A DNA stretch of 38,729 nt, taken from Balneolales bacterium (GTDB taxonomy: Bacteria; Bacteroidota; Rhodothermia; Balneolales; Cyclonatronaceae). Every line of letters starts with the position of its first letter. The first letter of the stretch is position 1. The notes under the pieces are model-generated. The model was not told the DNA's origin and ran no database searches. It saw only the letters and a program-made list of their open reading frames with translations. The translations under genes and the position numbers were made by a program. The stretch lies in NCBI GenBank assembly GCA_022565805.1, contig JAIULZ010000023.1, positions 1-38,729 on the forward strand, written 5' to 3'. Shown here piece after piece: positions 2,591-24,436 of the stretch.

Positions 2591-3049
2591 TTATGATTGA
2601 ATGCCGTTTTTAGTCAGGTTAATTATGCGGTCACCATCGATTAGCTGTATAAGCGGATTTCTTTGGTTAAAAGCAGGGCCCTGCAGTCTATTGTCGGACA
2701 CACGAATGATGTTCGTGGAACGAAGCTCGTTTTCACGAACCTGCATAACGTAGACATTTCTAAAGCCGGCAGCGGTTACAAAGTAATACCCCTGGTGGTT
2801 ACGAATAAAACGTACTTCGGCACCACTAAAAGCAGAGAGTTCTATCCCCTCTTTTTCGAGCATAGGTAGCACATTAAACGTAAGACCAGACCGTACATCT
2901 TCGAACTGTCCCTGGGCATTAGTTTGAGCTACAACCTCGATTGGTTGTGCAAAATTTACATCCTGAATGGCGACTCTGCTGCTGCAGGCTGAGAGCAGCA
3001 ATGCAAAAGATAAGACAATCAGGATTTGGGTAATCAGATTTGATTTCAT
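2591..3049 (-). CDS. Small predicted lipoprotein
   Basis: This 152-residue protein begins with a lipoprotein signal, a hydrophobic stretch followed by LLSAC with the lipidated cysteine at residue 22. The mature part (about 130 residues) has alternating short hydrophobic and polar stretches typical of a small beta-rich domain; no catalytic motif is seen. I do not recognise the family. It is the first gene of a two-gene unit with the coiled-coil membrane protein 35 nt downstream, so a shared envelope role is likely. Apt lies upstream on the same strand, but 165 nt away, and is probably a separate unit. Confidence 0.8.
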   Translation of the reverse strand: MKSNLITQILIVLSFALLLSACSSRVAIQDVNFAQPIEVVAQTNAQGQFEDVRSGLTFNVLPMLEKEGIELSAFSGAEVRFIRNHQGYYFVTAAGFRNVYVMQVRENELRSTNIIRVSDNRLQGPAFNQRNPLIQLIDGDRIINLTKNGIQS

Positions 3050-3214
3050 ATTTCTATTATCGTTCGTGTTCGTTGTGTGTTATATAAACATGAAGTTGCT
3101 ACATTAGCATTACTACAGCCTAAAGTTAAACGGCTCTGCCAGCAAGCTGAATATAGGTAATTCAACCGCCTTTATAAACGCGGAAATGAATTTAAACAAT
3201 ATATTTTTTAGTCA

Positions 3215-3757
3215 CTAAAATGTTAATAATGCGTCGAAAAGTACATTGTTTTTTAGTTTTTTTGTTCCTTCAAGAAAAGACAGGTTAATTAGAAAGGAGT
3301 AGCCAACTACTTCTCCCCCCAAACGTTCTACCAGCTCGGTAGCAGCCGCAGCTGTACCCCCTGTTGCTATTAGGTCATCATGAATTAATACACGATTTCC
3401 TTTAATTATTGAGTCTGCATGAATCTCAACACTGTCCTCTCCGTACTCCAGCTTATATGAAGCTGAAATAGTCTTTGCAGGTAACTTGTTGGGCTTACGT
3501 ATGGGTACAAAACCCGCATCTAATCGCATAGCAAGAGATGGACCAAAAAGGAATCCCCTTGACTCAAGCCCTACTATTAAGTCTACCTTTTCTTTTAAAA
3601 ATGGTTTGGCCAACAACCTGTTTGTCATGTATAGCGTATCCGGGTCCCTCAATAAAGGTGTTATATCTTTGAAAATAATACCCGGTTTCGGAAAGTCCTT
3701 TATATCCCTAATTTTACTATTTAGCTGTTCAAGACAAATTTTGTCAAACCCTGACAT
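3215..3757 (-). CDS. apt: Adenine phosphoribosyltransferase
   Basis: It converts adenine and PRPP to AMP and pyrophosphate (purine salvage, cytoplasm). Length (180 aa) is normal for the family. The N-terminal segment with [15 protein letters not shown] (about 22-36) is the Apt signature. ESRGF (65-69) contributes to the active site. The type I phosphoribosyltransferase PRPP-binding loop reads [16 protein letters not shown] at about 123-138, with the usual two acidic residues and the TGGT turn. The ATG at 3755-3757 fits the family start. It appears monocistronic: a 657-bp gene-free region lies upstream and 165 bp separate it from the next gene on the same strand. Confidence 0.95.
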
Positions 3758-3817
3758 GTATTATACCCGAAATTAAATATTATTTTAATTTATTAATTCG
3801 TCAACTCACCTGCTGCA

Positions 3818-3839
3818 ACCGTTTAGCTAATCAGAACGG
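3818..3839 (+). repeat. Short dispersed repeat (copy A)
   Basis: The 22-nt block from ACCGTTTAGC to ATCAGAACGG matches 38365-38386 at 19 of 22 positions. It can fold with CCGTT pairing AACGG around an 11-nt loop. It lies about 60 bp upstream of the apt start. Confidence 0.35.
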
Positions 3840-14673: not shown

Positions 14674-16125
14674 TTATCCTACGCTGCCTTCGAGTTTAAT
14701 ACTCAGCAACTTGGTAGCCTCTACGGCAAACTCCATCGGTAATTCTTTAAATACTTCTTTACAAAAACCATTGATGATGAGCGAAATCGCTTCTTCCTCA
14801 TCAAGACCTCTTTGTTGCAGATAAAAGATCTGATCTTCACCAATTTTGGAAGTAGTTGCTTCATGCTCTACCGAGGCAGTGTTGTTAGATGATTCAATAA
14901 ACGGAAAGGTGTGTGCGCCGCACTCAGAACCGATAAGCATAGAATCACACACAGAATAATTTCTTGCCCCATCGGCCTTTTTGCCAATTTTAACCAAACC
15001 ACGATAGCTGTTTTGTGATCTTCCGGCAGATATTCCCTTCGAAATAATGGTACTACGGGTGTTTTTCCCGAGGTGAATCATTTTGGTACCGGTATCGGCC
15101 TGCTGATAATCATTGGTTAGGGCTACAGAATAGAATTCTCCAACAGAATTATCGCCTTTGAGAATAACGCTTGGATATTTCCAGGTAATAGCAGAACCAG
15201 TTTCTACTTGTGTCCAGGAAATTTTTGCGTTGTTACCTTTACAGATACCGCGTTTGGTCACAAAGTTGTAGATACCACCTACGCCATTTTCGTCGCCGGG
15301 GTACCAATTTTGTACCGTTGAATATTTAATATCGGCATCATCCAACGCAACAAGCTCTACAACTGCGGCATGTAGCTGATTAGTATCGAACATGGGCGCT
15401 GTACACCCTTCAAGATAGCTTACCTGTGCGCCTTCCTCAGCAATAATAAGTGTACGCTCGAACTGACCTGAATCCTGATTATTGATCCGGAAATAGGTAG
15501 ATAGTTCCATCGGGCATTTAACCCCTTTCGGTACAAAGCAAAAAGAACCATCCGAAAACACTGCTGAATTCAAAGCTGCGAAAAAGTTATCGTTGGTTGG
15601 TATTACGCTCCCCATGTACTTCTTCACTAACTCGGGATGATCCTGTATAGCTTCACTTATAGAACAGAAAATTACCCCTGCTTCTGCTAATTTCTTTTTA
15701 AATGTAGTGGCAACCGAAACGCTATCAAACACAGCATCTACAGCTACGTTTTGAAGCATTTTCTGCTCATGCAAAGGAATACCCAGCTTCTCGTAAGTAG
15801 CAAGTATTTCAGGATCGACCTCATCCAGGCTCTGCTTTTTAGGCTTTTCCTTAGGAGTAGAATAATAGATAATCTGATCGTAATCCGGCTTTTTGTAATG
15901 CACATTTGGCCAATCCGGTTCTTCCATTGTCAGCCAGTGGTGAAACGCCTTTATACGAAACTCAAGCATCCATTCGGGTTCATTCTTTCGTTTAGAAATT
16001 TCCCTGATGATATCCTCATTCAGACCCCGTGGAAATTCTTCATATTCAATGTTTGTCTTGAATCCATATTTATATTTTCTCGATGCGGCCTGATCTACCG
16101 CTTCTGCTTCTGTAAGTCTTGACAT
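14674..16125 (-). CDS. sufB: Fe-S assembly scaffold SufB
   Basis: SufB is the main subunit of the SufBC2D scaffold on which clusters form. At 483 aa it has the expected length. Family stretches include [20 protein letters not shown] (35-54), [44 protein letters not shown], the C-terminal [17 protein letters not shown], and [18 protein letters not shown]. The conserved Cys in LEGCTAP and the Cys/Glu in the C-terminal segments are present. It is the first gene of the operon, so the suf promoter should lie in the 888-bp gene-free region upstream, where an AT-rich dyad occurs at 16256-16275. Confidence 0.96.
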
Positions 16126-16255
16126 TTTATGGAATATTTTAAGTGGGTTCGCTTTTTCGAATTATGTTATAAAAAACAATCGGATGAAAGCAGTCGTTCA
16201 GTCTCTGCGAAACATATCATCTCTTTTTCATCACTAACACAGAGTACGTTTTGTA

Positions 16256-16275
16256 ATATTATCGGTCAGTAATAT
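16256..16275. promoter_or_regulatory. Possible operator dyad of the suf operon
   Basis: ATATTA (16256-16261) and TAATAT (16270-16275) form a perfect inverted repeat with an 8-nt spacer, TCGGTCAG. It lies about 130 bp upstream of the sufB start. It does not match a site I know for IscR or SufR, and simple AT-rich dyads are common by chance, so this is only a candidate. Confidence 0.2.
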
Positions 16276-16979
16276 AAGCAATCATAACCTTTATTTCTAA
16301 TCAATCTAAATAAGCATTAGTATATTCTAATATTTACATGATAGATTTACTCATCTGGAATCTGTTGCATTTATACTTTTGTTAATTAGCATTTTGCTTT
16401 AATTGCCGAATCAGTTTGATTTATGCAAAAAAAGAAGCCTTCTGCTTTAAACCCGATTCTATACAGAATTTTACACTCACTTAACAGGCATTGAATTAAT
16501 TAATACTAACTGAAAAGCCTGCATTGCTATTTTTCTGAAACATATTTTCCACAAGCCTTTTTATCAATTGGCCCAGCCACATCCTTTTCGGTTTTAACAC
16601 AGAGCAGAGCTCTAAAATCTTTATTCTGTTGTGACGTATTTGGCAATAAATGCGAATATTCCAAAAGTCTTTGATAATTATACGGCAATTACCGTGCCAT
16701 ATTATATTAAACTGACACCTCTTATTTTAAATCCTTATCTAAATAACGACTAACCCTGCCCCGAAAACCCTGTTCTTTTGTCTGTATTTTTAGCAATCAG
16801 AAATTATGAGCTGTATTAAACTAAACTTTTGGCTTGAAATCAGAGATTTATACTCAGAAAATGGGAATGAGATGATATTGGGATGAATCCTATAATTAGC
16901 CGAGGTAACTTACCTTAGCTGCCTTTTATTACCATCGAAACTATTTTTATCCAATATACGCAACGCCATTAATAGCACC

Positions 16980-17004
16980 AGAAGGCCTTGCAAAACCACC
17001 CTTT
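16980..17004 (+). repeat. Relict end of the interspersed repeat
   Basis: The stretch starting AGAAGGCCTTGCAAAAC matches the left end of repeat copy 2 (4248-4272) at 22 of 25 positions, and all three differences are transitions. It stops near the stop codon of the histidine kinase gene; no inner stem follows, so only this end is present. Confidence 0.4.
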
Positions 17005-17013
17005 GATTGTGTT

Positions 17014-19155
17014 TCAACCCGCCTTAGAAGGAAGTGTAATACGGAAAGTTGTTCCGCTTCCCTTTGTACTCTCAACTTTTATGTCTCCTGAAATTAAACG
17101 GATATAGCTGCGGCAGATATGAAGTCCGAGTCCAGTACCCTGAAATTTCCGGCTGATTCCCGAGCTCACCTGTGTGAAAGGTTCAAAAACCTTATCCAAA
17201 AACTTTTCTTCAATACCAATTCCGGTATCGCTCACCTCTATTATGGCCCTATCTATATCGGCATCACCGAAAATACGTATACTTATACCACCTCTCTCTG
17301 TAAATTTAATAGCGTTTTTTAAAAGAATATCGAGTACTCTGCGTAGTAAATCCGGGTCTGTTATGGCAATTATTCCGGTATCTGCTTCAACATTCAGACT
17401 TAAACCGGAAGAAGTAGCCTGATCTTTATAATGCTTGAAAGTGCCCCTGTAGTAACTACCCAATTCTACTTCCTGCATTTGACGCTTAATTTTACCAGAC
17501 TCAATCTCTGCCAGCATCAAAATATTGTTCATAGTTTCAAGCAGGCGCTCTCCACTTTTTTTAATGCTCTCTATAAATATGAGCGACTCGTCCTCTTTAT
17601 CCTGAAATTGATCTTTCAAAATAGAAGCGAAACCGATGATACCCGTAAGCGGAGTTCTCAACTCATGGCTCATATTCGAAATAATATTCGATTTAAGCGC
17701 ATTTGCTTCCTCGGCTTTCTGTTTTGCCTCCAATAACTTATGCTCGGCTTCTCTGTCTTTTGTAATATCTCTGGCAATAGCCATCAGGGCTACGGGCTCA
17801 TCAAATTCATCTTTTATAAATGAAGTAGACAGGGCTACCGTTATAAGCTTGCCATCCTTCGTTTTATTTATAATTTCTCCGGAGAAACCATCTTTTGCTA
17901 ATGTATTTTCAAAGATAGTACTACCTATGTTGGGTGCATCAATATCCGGATAAAATATTTCGGAGGTCTTTCCGTGTATTTCTTCGATAACATAGCCATA
18001 GAGATCTGTAAATGCTTTATTAACGTAAATAATACGATCATCCAGAGAAGCGATATTAATGCTGTCGTTAACATCATCTAGAGAAGCCATCAATTTGGTC
18101 AGAAACAGTTCATTTCTGCTTTTTTTGCTGGAATCGAATACCGTGCCCTGAAGCCAAATTAACTTACCCTCCGCGTTTTTCACTCCAACTGTAGTACCAA
18201 AAAGCAAGGCTGAAGAGCCGTCTTTCTTTATAAACTCAGACTCTGAGCTAATTATATGAGACTGTTCATTCAGTTTTTCTATTAGTTTATATCTTCGTTC
18301 CGGATTCTTATAGATACTTCTGGCATCTGAAACATTTAAAAGAAAATCATTTTCATCGGAGTAGCCGAGCAATTTACAAAACTCAGGATTTACGATTATA
18401 AATTCCCCTTCCGGGGTAGACTGATACAAGCCAATTCTGGCATTACGAAATACAGCCTTATAGCGAGAATTACAATCGAATAAAGCCTGATAAACGGCTA
18501 CATTTTCGGTAATATCTTGCAGGCGGGCGACGTAGGTATTGGCAAATGGGTCTCTTTTGTGAATATTTACTGCGAGGTACTTACGACTAATTTTTGTGCT
18601 GTAGCTTATGGTATCCTGACTTTTAATCCATAGTTGTGGCAGGTTTTTGATCACCAGTTCAACTATTAGTTTTTCGGGGCTCATTCCAACAGTGGCTGCC
18701 AGCTCAAGTGCCGCCTGATTACAGTTTGTAACTATTCCGTTCAAAGAAAAAGTTAATCCAGGTGTATCAGATTCCTCCCTGTAAGTGTAAGGAAGCTGTT
18801 TTGTGCTCCTACTATTCTGAACAAAACTTGATTCAAAAATCAGTATATGCCTGTTTTCACTTATGGGTATGGCTGTATACGAGTATGTTTTACTCTTATG
18901 CTCAAATCTCCCGGCAACCAGATCTTTAGCTATTTTTGCCAGTAAAAACGCATGCAACTTCTCAGTTTCTTTTAAATCCGTTATTTCACTGAAAAAACTG
19001 TAGAACTCCTGGTTGCTGTCCACGTGTATTAAATCATGATCATTTTTGATGATACATGCAGGAGCTAATATGTGATTTAATGTGAAAGACACGTATTTAG
19101 AATAAATATGTTTAATTAAAAAAGCATAGACAACGCTAATAGCCTCTAAGGCCAA
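17014..19155 (-). CDS. Cytoplasmic multi-PAS sensor histidine kinase
   Basis: The 713-residue protein has no convincing membrane span. About four PAS-like segments come first (roughly 30-115, 125-215, 230-350 and 355-475), the third and fourth with PAC-type ends. A HisKA dimerisation domain follows, with the phospho-accepting His497 in NMSHELRTPLTGIIGF. The HATPase domain has an N-box (LLKNAIKF), G1 (SDTGIGI), F-box (FEPFTQ) and G2 (GTGLGLHIC). No receiver domain and no response regulator gene lies nearby, so it is an orphan kinase with unknown signal. The first codon here is TTG; a GTG at 19090-19092, 21 codons in, is an alternative that removes a leader not expected in a PAS domain. There is no ATG before about residue 137. 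Confidence 0.9.
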   Translation of the reverse strand: MALEAISVVYAFLIKHIYSKYVSFTLNHILAPACIIKNDHDLIHVDSNQEFYSFFSEITDLKETEKLHAFLLAKIAKDLVAGRFEHKSKTYSYTAIPISENRHILIFESSFVQNSRSTKQLPYTYREESDTPGLTFSLNGIVTNCNQAALELAATVGMSPEKLIVELVIKNLPQLWIKSQDTISYSTKISRKYLAVNIHKRDPFANTYVARLQDITENVAVYQALFDCNSRYKAVFRNARIGLYQSTPEGEFIIVNPEFCKLLGYSDENDFLLNVSDARSIYKNPERRYKLIEKLNEQSHIISSESEFIKKDGSSALLFGTTVGVKNAEGKLIWLQGTVFDSSKKSRNELFLTKLMASLDDVNDSINIASLDDRIIYVNKAFTDLYGYVIEEIHGKTSEIFYPDIDAPNIGSTIFENTLAKDGFSGEIINKTKDGKLITVALSTSFIKDEFDEPVALMAIARDITKDREAEHKLLEAKQKAEEANALKSNIISNMSHELRTPLTGIIGFASILKDQFQDKEDESLIFIESIKKSGERLLETMNNILMLAEIESGKIKRQMQEVELGSYYRGTFKHYKDQATSSGLSLNVEADTGIIAITDPDLLRRVLDILLKNAIKFTERGGISIRIFGDADIDRAIIEVSDTGIGIEEKFLDKVFEPFTQVSSGISRKFQGTGLGLHICRSYIRLISGDIKVESTKGSGTTFRITLPSKAG

Positions 19156-19567
19156 ATACCTTTATTCAAATACAACAACAAAACCGATGGCTTATATCCT
19201 GTAATTCAGAATCGTATTTATTATTAATACACTCTAGTGCGTCTTCCCGATAAGAAATCTATCCTTCAATCAGGTATATCGAAGTATACAAAATAGACCC
19301 TTTGGTACAAAACAATTACTTCACTTTATCGGCAAAGTAGGTTCATATCCGGTTTTAAACAAGCTTTGTTATGGTTGAACTGCAATTATAGATCAAGTAA
19401 TTCTTTAAAATAGTAAACGCCAATTTTCCATGAACTTCCTATTCCTTTTCTGCACAGTTTTATCAATTCATGCCCAAAAAACAGGACCACGATATAATCA
19501 TAATTTGTATATTTACAATGTCTTATAATATCTGTTTTGGGATTGCAAGGTTTGTTAAATTAAAGAA

Positions 19568-19581
19568 TGTAAGCGCTTACT
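19568..19581. promoter_or_regulatory. LacI/CcpA-type operator-like palindrome
   Basis: TGTAAGCGCTTACT contains the perfect 12-bp palindrome GTAAGCGCTTAC with the central CG step typical of LacI-family regulator sites and catabolite response elements. It lies about 400 bp upstream of the GH13 amylase gene, a plausible target of sugar control. The regulator itself is not in the window. Confidence 0.5.
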
Positions 19582-19690
19582 TTTTTTCTTAAATTAGAAT
19601 AACAAATTTCACTCCGGCTAATCAAAGGCTTTGTATCTGCAAATTAATTCGCTTGGCATTACCCCTCTGTCTTATTTAGGTAAAGTAATA

Positions 19691-19700
19691 AAAGCGCTTT
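19691..19700. promoter_or_regulatory. Second GCGC palindrome
   Basis: AAAGCGCTTT is a perfect 10-bp palindrome sharing the AGCGCT core with the site at 19568-19581, about 122 bp away between centres. It could be a weaker second operator; this is inference. Confidence 0.25.
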
Positions 19701-19718
19701 GTGCGTTACATGGCGATG

Positions 19719-19767
19719 AAAAAAGCCGTAGTGCCTGGCTTGCCAATGCCATTTAATTGGCTTTTTT
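19719..19767 (+). terminator. Terminator-like hairpin in amylase leader
   Basis: An outer pair AAAAAAGCC (19719-19727) / GGCTTTTTT (19759-19767) competes with or encloses an inner hairpin GCCAAT (19742-19747) / ATTGGC (19756-19761) that runs directly into a T run. The mutually exclusive pairings resemble an attenuator. It is oriented for + strand transcription. Confidence 0.5.
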
Positions 19768-19907
19768 AAGTAAAGTAATATTTAACCATCGTTTTAGGAC
19801 GATTTGTTTTGATTTTTAATACAGTGATCGCTCTTATCCTTCTTTTACAGATAAATTAGCGATTAAATTTTTAGAGGACTTTGATAAGCTTCTAATTGTG
19901 TATTGGT

Positions 19908-19934
19908 CGGTGCTACGTCAAGTGCCGTTTTTTT
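19908..19934 (+). terminator. Second terminator-like hairpin before amylase
   Basis: CGGTGC (19908-19913) and GTGCCG (19922-19927) pair over 6 bp, two of them G-T wobbles, around an 8-nt loop. Seven T follow (19928-19934). It ends 46 nt upstream of the amylase ATG, so read-through would be needed for expression from any upstream promoter. Confidence 0.4.
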
Positions 19935-19980
19935 CAATTTCAAATCACAAGATTATTTTGATAACCCGATTTAGATTTAT

Positions 19981-21348
19981 ATGAACAGAATTATATTATT
20001 GACAGCAACCTTGCTTGTCACTCTGCTTACCTTCTCTTGTCAGACCGCAAAAAATGGAGACCATCCGGAGTTTTCTCCCCCTGAATGGAGCTACAATGCA
20101 ACCATTTATGAGGTAAATATCCGTCAGTTCTCCGAGGAAGGCACCTTTAGTGCAGTTGAAGCACATCTACCCAGGCTAAAAGAACTGGGTGTTGATATTG
20201 TTTGGCTTATGCCTGTTCACCCTATTGGCGAGAAAAACCGGAAGGGCACAAAAGGTAGCTACTACGCCGTTTACGACTATTTCGATGTCAATCCGGAATT
20301 TGGTTCAAAAGACGACCTTCGATCTTTAATCCAAACTGCCCATAGCCTGGATATGAAAGTTCTTTTAGACTGGGTAGCTAACCACACGGCATGGGATAAC
20401 CCCCTAACACAGACCAACCCTGATTTCTACGTTCTTAATGAAGAAGGAGATTTTATCATTCCGCCCGACACCGACTGGGAAGATGTTATTCAGCTGAATT
20501 ACGACAATCCCGCGGTTCATGATTATATGGCTTCTGCCCTTCGCTATTGGGTAGAAGAGTTTGATATCGATGGATACCGCGCTGATGTGGCCTACTTAGT
20601 GCCAACCGAATTTTGGATAAGAGCCCGCAGAGATCTGGATGCTATCAAACCGGTTTTTATGCTCGCTGAAGCGCACACTCCAGAGCTACACCCCGCCTTC
20701 GACATGGGCTACAATTGGGAAATGCATCACCTTATGAATCGCATAGCCCGTGGGGAGTCTGTCCCGAATGATATTGATGCTGTCTTGAATGATGTGCGAA
20801 ATAATTTTCCTGAGAATACATTTATGATGAATTTTATTACCAATCATGATGAAAACTCATGGGCCGGCACAGAATTCGATCGTCTGGGTGAAGGCAAAGA
20901 TGCCTTTGCGGTTCTTGTGGCCACAATGGAAGGTATGCCGCTGCTCTACAACGGACAGGAAACGGGATTTAACAGAATGCTCGAGTTTTTTGAAAAAGAT
21001 CCTATTGACTGGGATTTCGACAGCAAATATATCGAGTTTTACACGAGGTTGAATCAATTGAAGCAAACACATGCTGCCTTACAAAATGGTGCGCGTGGTG
21101 GCAAAATGGAGCGCGTTGCTACTACTGCAAACGATCAGATTTACGCCTTTACGCGAAGTGCTGGCGACGAGCATATTCTCGTGGTGCTGAATCTGAGTAA
21201 TTCGATAGCTTCTTTCGAAATAGAATCACAGCTTCCTTCGGTCGGGATGGATGCATTTTGGGGTGATTTAAGCTTTGAGGCCGGGAGTTTCCCAACAGAG
21301 CACCAATTTGGCCCCTGGGAGTATCAAATCTTCACCAGCTCGAGATAG
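19981..21348 (+). CDS. GH13 alpha-amylase family lipoprotein
   Basis: It is a secreted glycoside hydrolase acting on alpha-glucans. The N terminus is a lipoprotein signal, LLTFSC with Cys20, so the enzyme is probably anchored in the outer membrane or facing the periplasm. All four GH13 regions are present: DWVANH (D130-H135), GYRADVA with the nucleophile Asp202, the acid/base Glu230 in LAEAH, and the transition-state Asp290 in ITNHDEN. A beta-sandwich C domain occupies about 375-455. Length (455 aa) fits a compact family member. The exact substrate cannot be read from sequence. No susC/susD genes are adjacent. The ATG has no Shine-Dalgarno; LacI-type control is suggested by the palindrome at 19568. 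Confidence 0.93.
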   Translation: MNRIILLTATLLVTLLTFSCQTAKNGDHPEFSPPEWSYNATIYEVNIRQFSEEGTFSAVEAHLPRLKELGVDIVWLMPVHPIGEKNRKGTKGSYYAVYDYFDVNPEFGSKDDLRSLIQTAHSLDMKVLLDWVANHTAWDNPLTQTNPDFYVLNEEGDFIIPPDTDWEDVIQLNYDNPAVHDYMASALRYWVEEFDIDGYRADVAYLVPTEFWIRARRDLDAIKPVFMLAEAHTPELHPAFDMGYNWEMHHLMNRIARGESVPNDIDAVLNDVRNNFPENTFMMNFITNHDENSWAGTEFDRLGEGKDAFAVLVATMEGMPLLYNGQETGFNRMLEFFEKDPIDWDFDSKYIEFYTRLNQLKQTHAALQNGARGGKMERVATTANDQIYAFTRSAGDEHILVVLNLSNSIASFEIESQLPSVGMDAFWGDLSFEAGSFPTEHQFGPWEYQIFTSSR

Positions 21349-21679
21349 TACTATTTAAGGTTTTAGACGATTTCCATTTTTACGTAATAATTTTACTGAT
21401 GGAAACAGTTTTCAAATTTAACCAAAGGCTTTGTCGTGTATACGGCAAAGCCTTTGTAAATTCAATTTGAGGAATAAGTACGCCAAGGTCTTAAATATCT
21501 ATTTTCTGAGATTGAATTCAGCTTGTAAATAATTTCATACCCACGGCATTTCATCAAAATTTTGATTCCTTGCACCAGATAGATTTATCCCGTTTATCAC
21601 TCAAGCTATGGAATCGAATACCTATTGAGCTATCCAATAACTCCTCCATTTATTTTATTTCAATAGCTGAAGTTCTTGC
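21349..21679. other. Convergent intergenic region
   Basis: These 331 bases separate the amylase from the converging glutamine amidotransferase gene. Apart from the strong hairpin at 21423-21456 I see no gene or further signal. Confidence 0.5.
21423..21456. terminator. Strong hairpin, probable terminator between convergent genes
   Basis: CAAAGGCTTTG (21423-21433) and CAAAGCCTTTG (21446-21456) form an 11-bp stem, extended inside by CGT/ACG. It lies 75 nt after the amylase stop. There is no clean T run on either side, so termination is likely but not certain. The AAAGGCTTTG word also resembles the end of the interspersed repeat. Confidence 0.5.
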
Positions 21680-22378
21680 TTAATCTGACAATTTGGACAG
21701 AATAGCAATCAAATATTCGTTTGATGCATTACAGTGATGGGCTTGGTTTAAAATCTCATTCTCATTTTGAATAAAATCGTCTTCTATAAGTTCGTGACGT
21801 CCGTTTTCGGTCATTAATGATAATGCATCAGGAGTTACTTCAAGGTGAAACTGCAGCCCTAAAACTTTATCTCCATAAAGAAAGGACTGATTAATGCAGG
21901 CTTCCGACTCCAATAAATTTACAGCTTTGTCTGGCAGTTCAAATGAATCGCCATGCCAGTGAAAGGAAATAAACTCCTCAGGTATCTCGCTCAATAAGCT
22001 GTTTTTTTTGCCTTCTTTAGTTTTGGTCAAAGAAAACCAACCGATTTCCTTTTTCTTACCCGGATAAACTTTAGCACCTAATGCAGATGCAATTAGCTGT
22101 GAGCCAAGACAAATACCAATTACTGTTTTTCGGGCCTCAATAGCTTTGAGTATAAACTCTCTTTCGGCCTTTATCCAGGGATATTGATTTTCTTCATAAA
22201 CCCCCATTGGCCCGCCCATTATAATAAGCCAATCGAAGTCATTTAAACCGGGCAAAGTATCTTCTTCAAAGAATTTTGTACTGCTCAGAGAATGTCCGTT
22301 ATTCTTTGCCCAAGTTTCAATACAGCCCAATCCTTCAAAAGCAACATGTTGTAAATAATGTATGAGGAATTGCTTCAT
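21680..22378 (-). CDS. Class I glutamine amidotransferase (GMP synthase-like)
   Basis: The 232-residue protein has the class I triad: Cys90 in the nucleophile elbow GICLGSQL, His178 and Glu180 in QFHLEVT. The early MGGPMGVYEENQYPW segment (54-68) forms the oxyanion-side strand typical of stand-alone GMP synthase-like amidotransferases. No synthetase domain or partner subunit is present, so the in vivo substrate is open; relatives include glutamine amidotransferases and gamma-glutamyl hydrolase-like proteins. It is minus-strand and lies 63 nt after pta, perhaps in the same transcript. Confidence 0.85.
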   Translation of the reverse strand: MKQFLIHYLQHVAFEGLGCIETWAKNNGHSLSSTKFFEEDTLPGLNDFDWLIIMGGPMGVYEENQYPWIKAEREFILKAIEARKTVIGICLGSQLIASALGAKVYPGKKKEIGWFSLTKTKEGKKNSLLSEIPEEFISFHWHGDSFELPDKAVNLLESEACINQSFLYGDKVLGLQFHLEVTPDALSLMTENGRHELIEDDFIQNENEILNQAHHCNASNEYLIAILSKLSD

Positions 22379-22441
22379 TGTTTCGGAGTCTTTCGTTTAG
22401 AAAATTACATTTCTGCCGTAACATCGTAAACCCTTAATATC

Positions 22442-23437
22442 TTAATCGCACAATAGCGACGTTACTGCAGACATAAGCACAATATCTGCAGTACTACAAC
22501 CACGAGACAAGTCATTTACGGGTTTTGCCAATCCTTGCAGAATAGGACCAAGTGCAACGGCCCCGCCTACTCTCTCCGTTATTTTATAGCCAATGTTACC
22601 GGCATCAAGATTGGGGAATATATACACGTTGGCTTTTCCTGCTACCGCAGAATCGGGCGCTTTCCTGTTAGCGATTTCAGGCATAAATGCGGCATCGAAC
22701 TGTAGCTCGCCATCGGCTTCTAAAGTTGGCTGCTCCTCTTTTAGCAAGGCAAGCGCGTTTTGCACGAGTTCTACTCTTTCGTGACGCGCGCTTCCTTTGG
22801 TAGAAAAAGACAGAAGGGCAACCTTAGGTTTCTCTGAAGTAAGTTTACGGTGTGTTTCTGCAGAATCTGCTGCAATTCTTGCGAGCTGTATTTCGTCGGG
22901 ATAAGGGATTACCGCACAATCGCCATAGGTAATTTCTTTTCCATCGGGAAGAATCATCAAAAAGCAACTGGAAACCATGCTTCCTTTTTTCTTTACTCCA
23001 ACCGATTGCAATGCCGAACGTATTACCTCTGCAGTAGTATGGGTAGCACCGGCCAGAGTGCCGTCAGTCAGCCCGTTTTTTAGCATAAAATTGGCAAACC
23101 AAAGGGGCTGAAAAAGCATATTATTTGCGGTTTCGAGAGTCAAACCCTTTGCTTTTCTGGCTTCAAAAAGTTGCGCCGCAAAATGCTCTCTTTCGGGATG
23201 TAAAGCGGGGTCGGTTATGGCTATACTATCGGGTAATTCAACATTATTTTTTTCGGCGGCATCTCGTATTTGTGCTTCGTTGCCAATTAAAACAGGGGTA
23301 ACAATACTATCGGCATGTAATTCGACTGCAGCTTTTAGTGTACGAACATCTGTAGCTTCTGGCAATCCGATTTTTTTACCAAGTACCGATGCCTGTTTCA
23401 TAATTCGTTCTACAGGTGTTAGTTTTTCCTCACTCAT
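22442..23437 (-). CDS. pta: Phosphate acetyltransferase (short form)
   Basis: It converts acetyl-CoA and phosphate to acetyl phosphate and CoA (cytoplasm). The 331-residue protein contains just the PTA/PTB catalytic domain, without the N-terminal DRTGG and P-loop-like domains of the long E. coli type. Family stretches include GTLAGATHTTAEVIRSALQ (about 131-149), SMVSSCFLM, and the C-terminal GNIGYKITERVGGAVALGPI and DLSRGCSTADIV. No acetate kinase gene is adjacent. A purine-rich AAGGAA site precedes the ATG. The 123-nt gap to the EamA gene upstream contains an AGAAGG/CCTTCT dyad (23474-23496), so it may have its own promoter. Confidence 0.92.
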   Translation of the reverse strand: MSEEKLTPVERIMKQASVLGKKIGLPEATDVRTLKAAVELHADSIVTPVLIGNEAQIRDAAEKNNVELPDSIAITDPALHPEREHFAAQLFEARKAKGLTLETANNMLFQPLWFANFMLKNGLTDGTLAGATHTTAEVIRSALQSVGVKKKGSMVSSCFLMILPDGKEITYGDCAVIPYPDEIQLARIAADSAETHRKLTSEKPKVALLSFSTKGSARHERVELVQNALALLKEEQPTLEADGELQFDAAFMPEIANRKAPDSAVAGKANVYIFPNLDAGNIGYKITERVGGAVALGPILQGLAKPVNDLSRGCSTADIVLMSAVTSLLCD

Positions 23438-23560
23438 AAATTTCCTTTTTTTAAAATAAAAAATCAGTTTAACAGAAGGTTCTGAAAAATCCTTCTAATA
23501 ATGCTTTTCATAAAATAACGGTTAAGCTTCCCTCATTAAAGAAGCAATTTTTGAATATGC

Positions 23561-24436
23561 TTACGTCAAAAAAGTTAAAATATAAATTGCGGCAACGGCA
23601 AGCATAATCCCTGATATCTCTTTTAGAGCTGGTCTGTCTTTCCAGAAAATAATTCCGGTAATGGTTCCGGTAACTACTACGAGTACGTTAACAGTGCTAT
23701 ACACCACGCTTGCATCGAAATACCGAAATGCTTGTATCAAAAAATAGGACGACAGTAAATTCGGTATCCCTATTGCGACTCCAAGACCTGCCTCGGCTGG
23801 TTTCATTTTAAATAAGCTGCCAGACTTTACGGCAGAAATTATACCAATTATCAATGCGGTAAGAAAAATAAAGCTGAGCATCTGTGCTTCGGTTGCGATA
23901 CCACTGAATTCTTCCTCATATACTTTTAAGGATGCATCTGCCATGCCGGAGCCCAGAAAAAGAAGTATCAATAAAGATGCGCCGCTTATTCTGGTAAAGC
24001 TAATATCTTCACGAGCCCACAGTATAAGCCCAAGTGCCGCAAAAACCAGAAGAATTCCGGCAACCCGCATCGGACCAAGAGTATCCTGATACAAAAATAT
24101 AGAAAGCAGCACCGGCAACAGTAAAGACATTCGCATGCTTGCGATACTTACACCTACCCCGTTTGCGTGAACTGAACGGCTAAATATGAAAAAATTAGCA
24201 ATAAATAGGGTGCCGGTTAACAGACAGAAAACCCAAAACCAAAGGTTGTACGCAGCCAATAATGTTATATTTCCCGCAATATTTATGAAAAAAGCTACAG
24301 CCACAGCAGTAGCGTAGTTCCATGTAAGTACGTTTATAGTTGAATAAGACCGGCTTTCGCCAAGTTTCAGGAAATTGGCAAGCAGTACAGAACAGCTTAC
24401 GCTAAGCAGAATAAAAATAATACCCGGGGAAGCCAA
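23561..24436 (-). CDS. EamA/DMT-superfamily transporter
   Basis: This inner-membrane protein of 291 residues has about ten hydrophobic helices arranged as two EamA-type repeats (roughly 1-135 and 145-291). The first repeat ends in RVAGILLVFAALGLILW and the second in LKEISGIMLAVAAIYIL, the typical internal repeat. The substrate is unknown (drug/metabolite exporter family). The start codon is TTG (24434-24436), only 5 nt after the sprA stop codon, so translation is probably coupled to sprA. There is no ATG near this start. Confidence 0.82.
   Translation of the reverse strand: MASPGIIFILLSVSCSVLLANFLKLGESRSYSTINVLTWNYATAVAVAFFINIAGNITLLAAYNLWFWVFCLLTGTLFIANFFIFSRSVHANGVGVSIASMRMSLLLPVLLSIFLYQDTLGPMRVAGILLVFAALGLILWAREDISFTRISGASLLILLFLGSGMADASLKVYEEEFSGIATEAQMLSFIFLTALIIGIISAVKSGSLFKMKPAEAGLGVAIGIPNLLSSYFLIQAFRYFDASVVYSTVNVLVVVTGTITGIIFWKDRPALKEISGIMLAVAAIYILTFLT

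Follow-up and report, generated by a model that had tools for sequence, protein, structure and literature searches.

A LacI-type operator, a long leader and two weak T-tailed hairpins upstream of an alpha-amylase-family gene in Balneolota

The cre sites of CcpA and the sites of MalR are LacI-family operators of sugar regulons. Leaders that combine a repressor with an attenuator are also known, such as trp-type leaders and those in which a cre is accompanied by a LicT/RAT leader, as in bglPH. We analyzed a 38,729-nucleotide stretch of DNA (the window), which is one (number 23) of the 290 contigs in a 4.47-Mb draft genome; the organism was placed in Balneolia, phylum Balneolota. Like the leaders mentioned above, this locus has an operator and then T-tailed hairpins before a gene. 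It differs from them in that no leader-peptide homolog was found for the frames of the leader, and no CAT_RBD protein (BglG/LicT-type antiterminator) was found in the organism's own genome (0 matches; the control was found in 4 of 14 genomes). BglG-type antiterminator control was rejected because no such protein was present.

LacI-family operators were described, in the available part of PMC4052901, as even palindromes of 16–22 nt with a central CG, more than 75% of which lie 30–140 bp upstream. The window site resembles these sugar-regulon operators in its even palindrome with central CG, its core AAGCGCTT and its occurrence before starch genes, but differs in its distance to the start codon (412 bp), its Balneolota host and its regulator, for which there is only a candidate. 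Long 5' UTRs with short reading frames were reported for Bacteroides thetaiotaomicron, a member of the same FCB group (PMC7366714, available part), and the leader analyzed here is likewise long and contains short frames. Transcripts were mapped in B. thetaiotaomicron, whereas the window leader is known from sequence alone. Among the literature matches listed, as far as their available parts go, none dealt with this leader or with amylase attenuation in Balneolota.

The operator and its recurrence near starch genes

The region contains the following genes and operator-like sites:

17014..19155, minus strand: divergent PAS-domain histidine kinase gene (Pfam; TTG start, which may be later)
19569..19580, no strand assigned: LacI-type operator GTAAGCGCTTAC, an even palindrome with central CG (sequence; 41 versus 3 control matches; ortholog leaders)
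19691..19700, no strand assigned: second, weak operator-like core AAAGCGCTTT, 121 bp from the first, which may be chance
19981..21348, plus strand: GH13 alpha-amylase-family gene (Pfam PF00128, E 2e-34; ATG at 19981)

The first-pass annotation had placed a LacI-type palindrome about 400 bp before the GH13 gene, and we read it there, 412 bp from the ATG. The palindrome GTAAGCGCTTAC is perfect over 12 bp and its 15-nt arms are 87% complementary; it has the even symmetry and central CG given for LacI-family operators (PMC4052901, available part). In 20 genomes (own and relatives), the GTAAGCGCTTAC pattern had 41 forward matches, compared to 3 for the control, which was the same pattern read backwards. 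It was present in 16 of these 20 genomes, own genome counted, including 4 sites (and 0 control matches) in the own genome; the relatives G007 and G010 had no perfect sites. The 4 own-genome sites and all 18 others in the window's family (eight relatives) formed a set of 22 perfect sites, 11 of which adjoin a gene with a Pfam starch domain. The neighbors of these sites were as follows:

GH13 (Pfam): window, C55, L192, L207, L208
Pullulanase (Pfam): L191, L196
GH57 (Pfam): L197, L199
CBM26 (Pfam): C257, L201
Non-starch, C95: phosphoglucomutase, 819 bp away
Non-starch, L193: site inside a frame
Non-starch, L194: PATR repeat only
Non-starch, L198 and L200: one neighbor scanned each, no Pfam match
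Non-starch, L205: chitobiase-type C-terminal domain
Non-starch, L206: OmpA
Counted as non-starch, L195, L202, L203 and L204: neighbors without a Pfam scan

Six further sites of the GTAAGCGCTTTC form were detected in the own genome, for which the search pattern had 2 control matches; the genes near them include an MFS transporter and a PATR protein.

We further examined 29 relatives' amylase loci, 12 of which belonged to family f3. The exact AAGCGCTT core was found upstream of the amylase in 11 of the 29, always as GTAAGCGCTTTC. All carriers (L012, L013, L015–L022 and L025) were members of family f3, representing 11 of its 12 amylases; the twelfth, L023, was without a GTAAGCGCTTTC site. The distance from GTAAGCGCTTTC to the ATG in these loci was 89–195 bp, with start codons chosen by us. 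Within the same genus, G003 had GTAAGCGGTTAC at -90 before the amylase ATG, and no recognizable operator was found upstream of the amylase in the other three of the four orthologs (G001, G004 and G005). The motif recurs, as LacI-family operators do, both before related genes and in orthologous leaders. Because of this recurrence next to starch genes and the near-identical sites before orthologous amylases, GTAAGCGCTTAC is probably a functional operator. The original proposal that a LacI-type operator controls the amylase is well supported by this conservation and by the genes adjoining the same motif. By eye, an inverted repeat resembling CAG.GCC....GGCCTG was also seen shortly behind the operator in several f3 leaders (L018, L012, L013, L015 and L017).

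The second AAGCGCTT core had a motif score of -1.6, compared to 27.4 for the first site (per-position background 1.8e-4), and the 24-nt stretch around it is 71% identical to the surroundings of the first. DNA looping between the two cores was rejected because the second is too weak to rely on.

Six LacI-family genes were identified in the own genome, none of them linked to the GTAAGCGCTTAC site. The repressor is perhaps encoded by the LacI gene on contig C186, a 7-kb contig in which no AAGCGCTT core was found. This gene (G000:C186, L133, positions 2838–3839) is flanked by a CBM20-domain gene and a GH13 gene.

A lengthened leader and its candidate promoter

The leader contains the following features, all on the plus strand:

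19581..19613: probable location of the amylase promoter, immediately behind the operator, from local alignment
19668..19690: copy 1 of a 23-nt direct repeat, 87% identical to 19758–19780
19710..19769: 19-codon reading frame overlapping hairpin 1, with its stop at the end of the T-tract; probably chance
19719..19767: hairpin 1, inner fold GCCAAT/ATTGGC (19742–19761) or outer fold A6GCCG/UGGCU6, with T6 tail
19758..19780: copy 2 of the direct repeat, holding most of the hairpin 1 3' arm and the T-tract
19908..19934: hairpin 2, CGGUGCU/AGUGCCG with two G-U pairs and T7 tail, -8.2 kcal/mol

No plus-strand protein gene precedes the hairpins, as had been noted earlier; the upstream neighbor is the minus-strand histidine kinase gene. 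The divergent intergenic region between kinase and amylase measures 825 bp in the window; in the six relatives whose upstream gene is also kinase-like it is 208–318 bp. Leaders of such length do occur elsewhere, since G008, a member of the same family with a different upstream gene, has an 886-bp region before its amylase. The kinase gene separates the amylase from sufB (14674–16125) in the window; in 12 of the 19 relatives' loci checked (L009–L012, L014, L016–L018, L021 and L023–L025, from families f3 and f5 and from G010 of f1), sufB is divergent and upstream of the amylase. We also collected 31 operator-to-ATG leaders, comprising 9 of the 10 own-genome sites, 10 of the 18 other family sites, the 11 f3 leaders and G003; sites outside this set lacked a clear start or downstream gene, or their gene was found later. 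The window leader (412 bp) was the second longest of the 31.

The leader was locally aligned with the 300-bp regions upstream of 11 relatives' amylases, and the scores were compared with those of 200 shuffles. The best alignment with G003 covered 19565–19600 (G003 at -94; 12 of 200 shuffles reached the score), and the best alignments with L013 and L018 covered 19563–19595 (6 and 1 of 200, respectively). By eye, ATTTCAC behind the operator was common to the window, G003 and G001. This suggests, from alignment, a probable promoter on or just behind the operator. The Bacteroidota-type pattern TAnnTTTG was rejected as a promoter guide: it occurred 51 times in 305 upstream regions of the own genome versus 30–48 times in ten shuffles, a slight excess only, and did not rank in the top 25 when patterns of its kind were ordered by enrichment. 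We therefore assigned no start site.

From the probable promoter to the ATG, the stretch exceeds that of G003, a species of the same genus, by about 300 bp. Because the leader and the intergenic region are longer than in most of the relatives compared, a lineage-specific expansion is likely. The 23-nt direct repeat, whose score as the best in 19540–19980 was reached by 0 of 150 shuffles, suggests a local duplication in the leader. Two other origins were considered. A mobile or repeated element was rejected, as the leader matched only itself in the own genome at E 0.01 and had no match in plasmids or phages. A gene remnant was also rejected: the 41-codon frame at 19631–19756 gave nothing below E 0.035 in the remaining 29 of the 30 genomes searched and nothing below E 0.19 in Pfam.

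Two hairpins measured against the genome and against orthologous leaders

Two T-tailed hairpins oriented with the amylase had been proposed between operator and ATG, and all of the bases listed for them were found in place. Hairpin 1 consists of A6GCC (19719–19727), GCCAAT (19742–19747), ATTGGC (19756–19761) and T6 (19762–19767), with GGCTTTTTT at 19759–19767 forming the 3' part of its outer fold. The inner fold has an energy of -8.0 kcal/mol, and the outer fold with its inner helix -15.4 kcal/mol. The stem of hairpin 2, CGGTGCT..AGTGCCG, occupies 19908–19927 and is directly followed by T7. The two folds of hairpin 1 share bases, as the first-pass annotation stated, but they do not look like alternative on/off states: since both use GGC at 19759–19761 before the same T-tract, they are two ways to a terminator-like end.

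A generic terminator scan of 15000–24000 found 7 sites versus 6.6 expected, both leader hairpins included. A strict scan (stem of at least 6 with at least 3 G-C, and T6 directly after) found 2 hairpins in the leader; among 2000 dinucleotide shuffles, 15 had one and 2 had two. By this criterion, which was set after the leader hairpins had been seen and so inflates the rarity of the pair, the pair is above chance. Applied to 718,729 bp of own sequence, made up of the window plus 34 pieces of 20 kb each, and with genes crudely called as longest frames, the same strict scan gave 49 T6-tailed hairpins, of which 32 were after a same-strand gene, 9 in genes, 4 in divergent regions, 3 antisense-flanked and 1 at a contig edge. 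The divergent group comprised the two leader hairpins and two others (-5.9 and -17.7 kcal/mol), so that some 82 kb of divergent intergenic strand held 2 matches besides those of the leader. The shuffles and the scarcity of such matches elsewhere make pure chance an uncomfortable explanation. The stronger of the two other matches lies at local position 18925 of L167 (G000:C6:20001-40000), minus strand, 693 nt from the preceding gene, and is a better candidate for a small-RNA terminator than the hairpins of the window.

Each hairpin shows a G-C-rich stem and then a T-tract, the form expected of an intrinsic terminator, but the stems are weak for this genome. Among the strict matches, 28 of the 32 post-gene hairpins were at -9.1 or stronger, and all 9 in-gene hairpins at -8.5 or weaker; with strict-scan energies of -6.8 and -7.6, hairpins 1 and 2 fall in the weak group, weaker than 29 and 28 of the 32 post-gene hairpins, respectively. 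When the last 60 nt to the end of T6 were folded, 27 of the 32 exceeded hairpin 1 (-16.0) in stability and 29 exceeded hairpin 2 (-12.5), both values being inside the range of these matches (-28.4 to -10.9). An A-rich flank is ordinary in this genome: in 14 of the 32, five or more of the 8 nt before the stem are A. When 318,729 bp were scanned under a looser rule (T-run of at least 6, energy of -7 or below), 60 hairpins were obtained: 21 after a same-strand gene, 24 in genes, 6 divergent (including both leader hairpins), 7 antisense-flanked and 2 at edges.

The hairpin pair was absent from the same-genus and same-order orthologous leaders compared, an outcome that the first-pass annotation had listed as speaking against its proposal. 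In the set of 31 leaders, any T-tailed hairpin under the looser rule was found in 3, and T6 directly after the stem only in the window. Under the looser rule, the 480 bp upstream of ten relatives' amylases (L002–L011) contained such hairpins in two cases: G005 has them at -79 and -68, and L007 has one at -399 that lies within its upstream gene. The G005 hairpin at -79 has a T-poor tail and is weakly similar to hairpin 2, at its place. The stretch 19914–19943, which overlaps hairpin 2, aligned marginally with G005 at -71 (8 of 200 shuffles, uncorrected for 11 comparisons). Alignments whose scores were reached by at most 15 of 200 shuffles were confined to the operator stretch (L018, L013 and L005), 19937–19964 (L003) and this G005 segment; among the 11 relatives, none of them touched hairpin 1, whose T-tract match with L008 was chance (172 of 200). 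The comparison of orthologous leaders therefore counts against an attenuator for the pair, with one marginal resemblance for hairpin 2 in G005. Even the nearest species compared have amylases only 64–68% identical, so the absence of the pair from their leaders carries little weight against a recent origin.

Possible functions of the leader

We favor, with moderate confidence, a starch-regulon amylase repressed at GTAAGCGCTTAC and preceded by a long leader whose hairpins are weak by-products. In this view the amylase would be one member of a Balneolota regulon for starch (alpha-glucans), and the region would control it. Its repressor, a LacI-family protein, would bind GTAAGCGCTTAC, on or just before the amylase promoter, and leave it when a glucan-derived sugar is present. 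The stretch from promoter to ATG may have been lengthened in this lineage, perhaps partly by local duplication, and the T-tailed hairpins would be by-products of its AT-rich sequence, acting at most as leaky, constitutive terminators. Leaky termination may occur in the leader, and regulated termination is presumably absent.

An unlikely arrangement is that the amylase promoter lies downstream of hairpin 2 or between the hairpins, which would then stop stray intergenic transcripts. Such a nearer promoter would be usual, because the leader is short in most of the relatives compared, and the G005 stretch that hairpin 2 marginally resembles lies at the same distance and holds TATATTTG. However, the two best-scoring operator-like sites of the window are not near the ATG. 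Counts of promoter-like patterns over 15000–24000 (30 versus 25.6 expected, sd 5.2) neither help nor hurt this arrangement.

We consider it still less likely that the hairpins form a functional attenuator, at which the repressor-controlled transcript would stop (at hairpin 1, hairpin 2 or both) unless a protein, translation of an upstream frame or a metabolite permitted read-through. The promoter is probably upstream of both hairpins; these have T6 and T7 tails, point the same way as the amylase and outnumber those in shuffles, and a weakly similar hairpin exists in G005. In addition, in the best fold of 19611–19770 both arms of hairpin 1 pair upstream with 19616–19640 instead, and the 19-codon frame overlaps hairpin 1. 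However, the leaders compared do not share the pair, its stems are weak for the genome, and the folds of 19611–19770 (z -0.85), 19710–19770 (z -1.31) and the whole leader (z -1.04) were no better than shuffles. ATG frames of at least 19 codons arose in 1559 of 2000 leader shuffles, and the longer form of this frame (start at 19701) had no Pfam match. The window had no Rfam match over cut-off (four sub-threshold matches, E 1.4–4.8), and the own genome has no CAT_RBD antiterminator.

It is very improbable that a distinct small RNA, about 150 nt long and with its end at hairpin 1, is driven from the operator while the amylase promoter lies further down: the operator, an alignable promoter-like stretch and a T-tailed hairpin do occur in the right order, but when 59 genomes were searched at the DNA level (E 0.01), there were, besides the window, 8 short matches (36.5–41.9 bits), 7 on or overlapping the operator stretch and 1 on 19671–19692, and neither the fold of 19611–19770 nor Rfam lends it support. 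The attenuator or small RNA suggested earlier thus found no backing in conservation, stem strength, folding or known partners. We give the least credence to a lineage-specific double control, in which LacI repression would be joined by translation-coupled attenuation, with ribosomes on the 19710–19769 frame melting hairpin 1 and hairpin 2 serving as a second leaky gate; if true, this would mean that an attenuator arose recently in Balneolota.

The hairpin result is mainly a caution: a T-tailed hairpin in an AT-rich leader should be compared with the terminators of the same genome and with the leaders of orthologs. Our findings point to a starch regulon in Balneolota whose LacI-type operator is conserved, which is useful for annotating regulation in this phylum.
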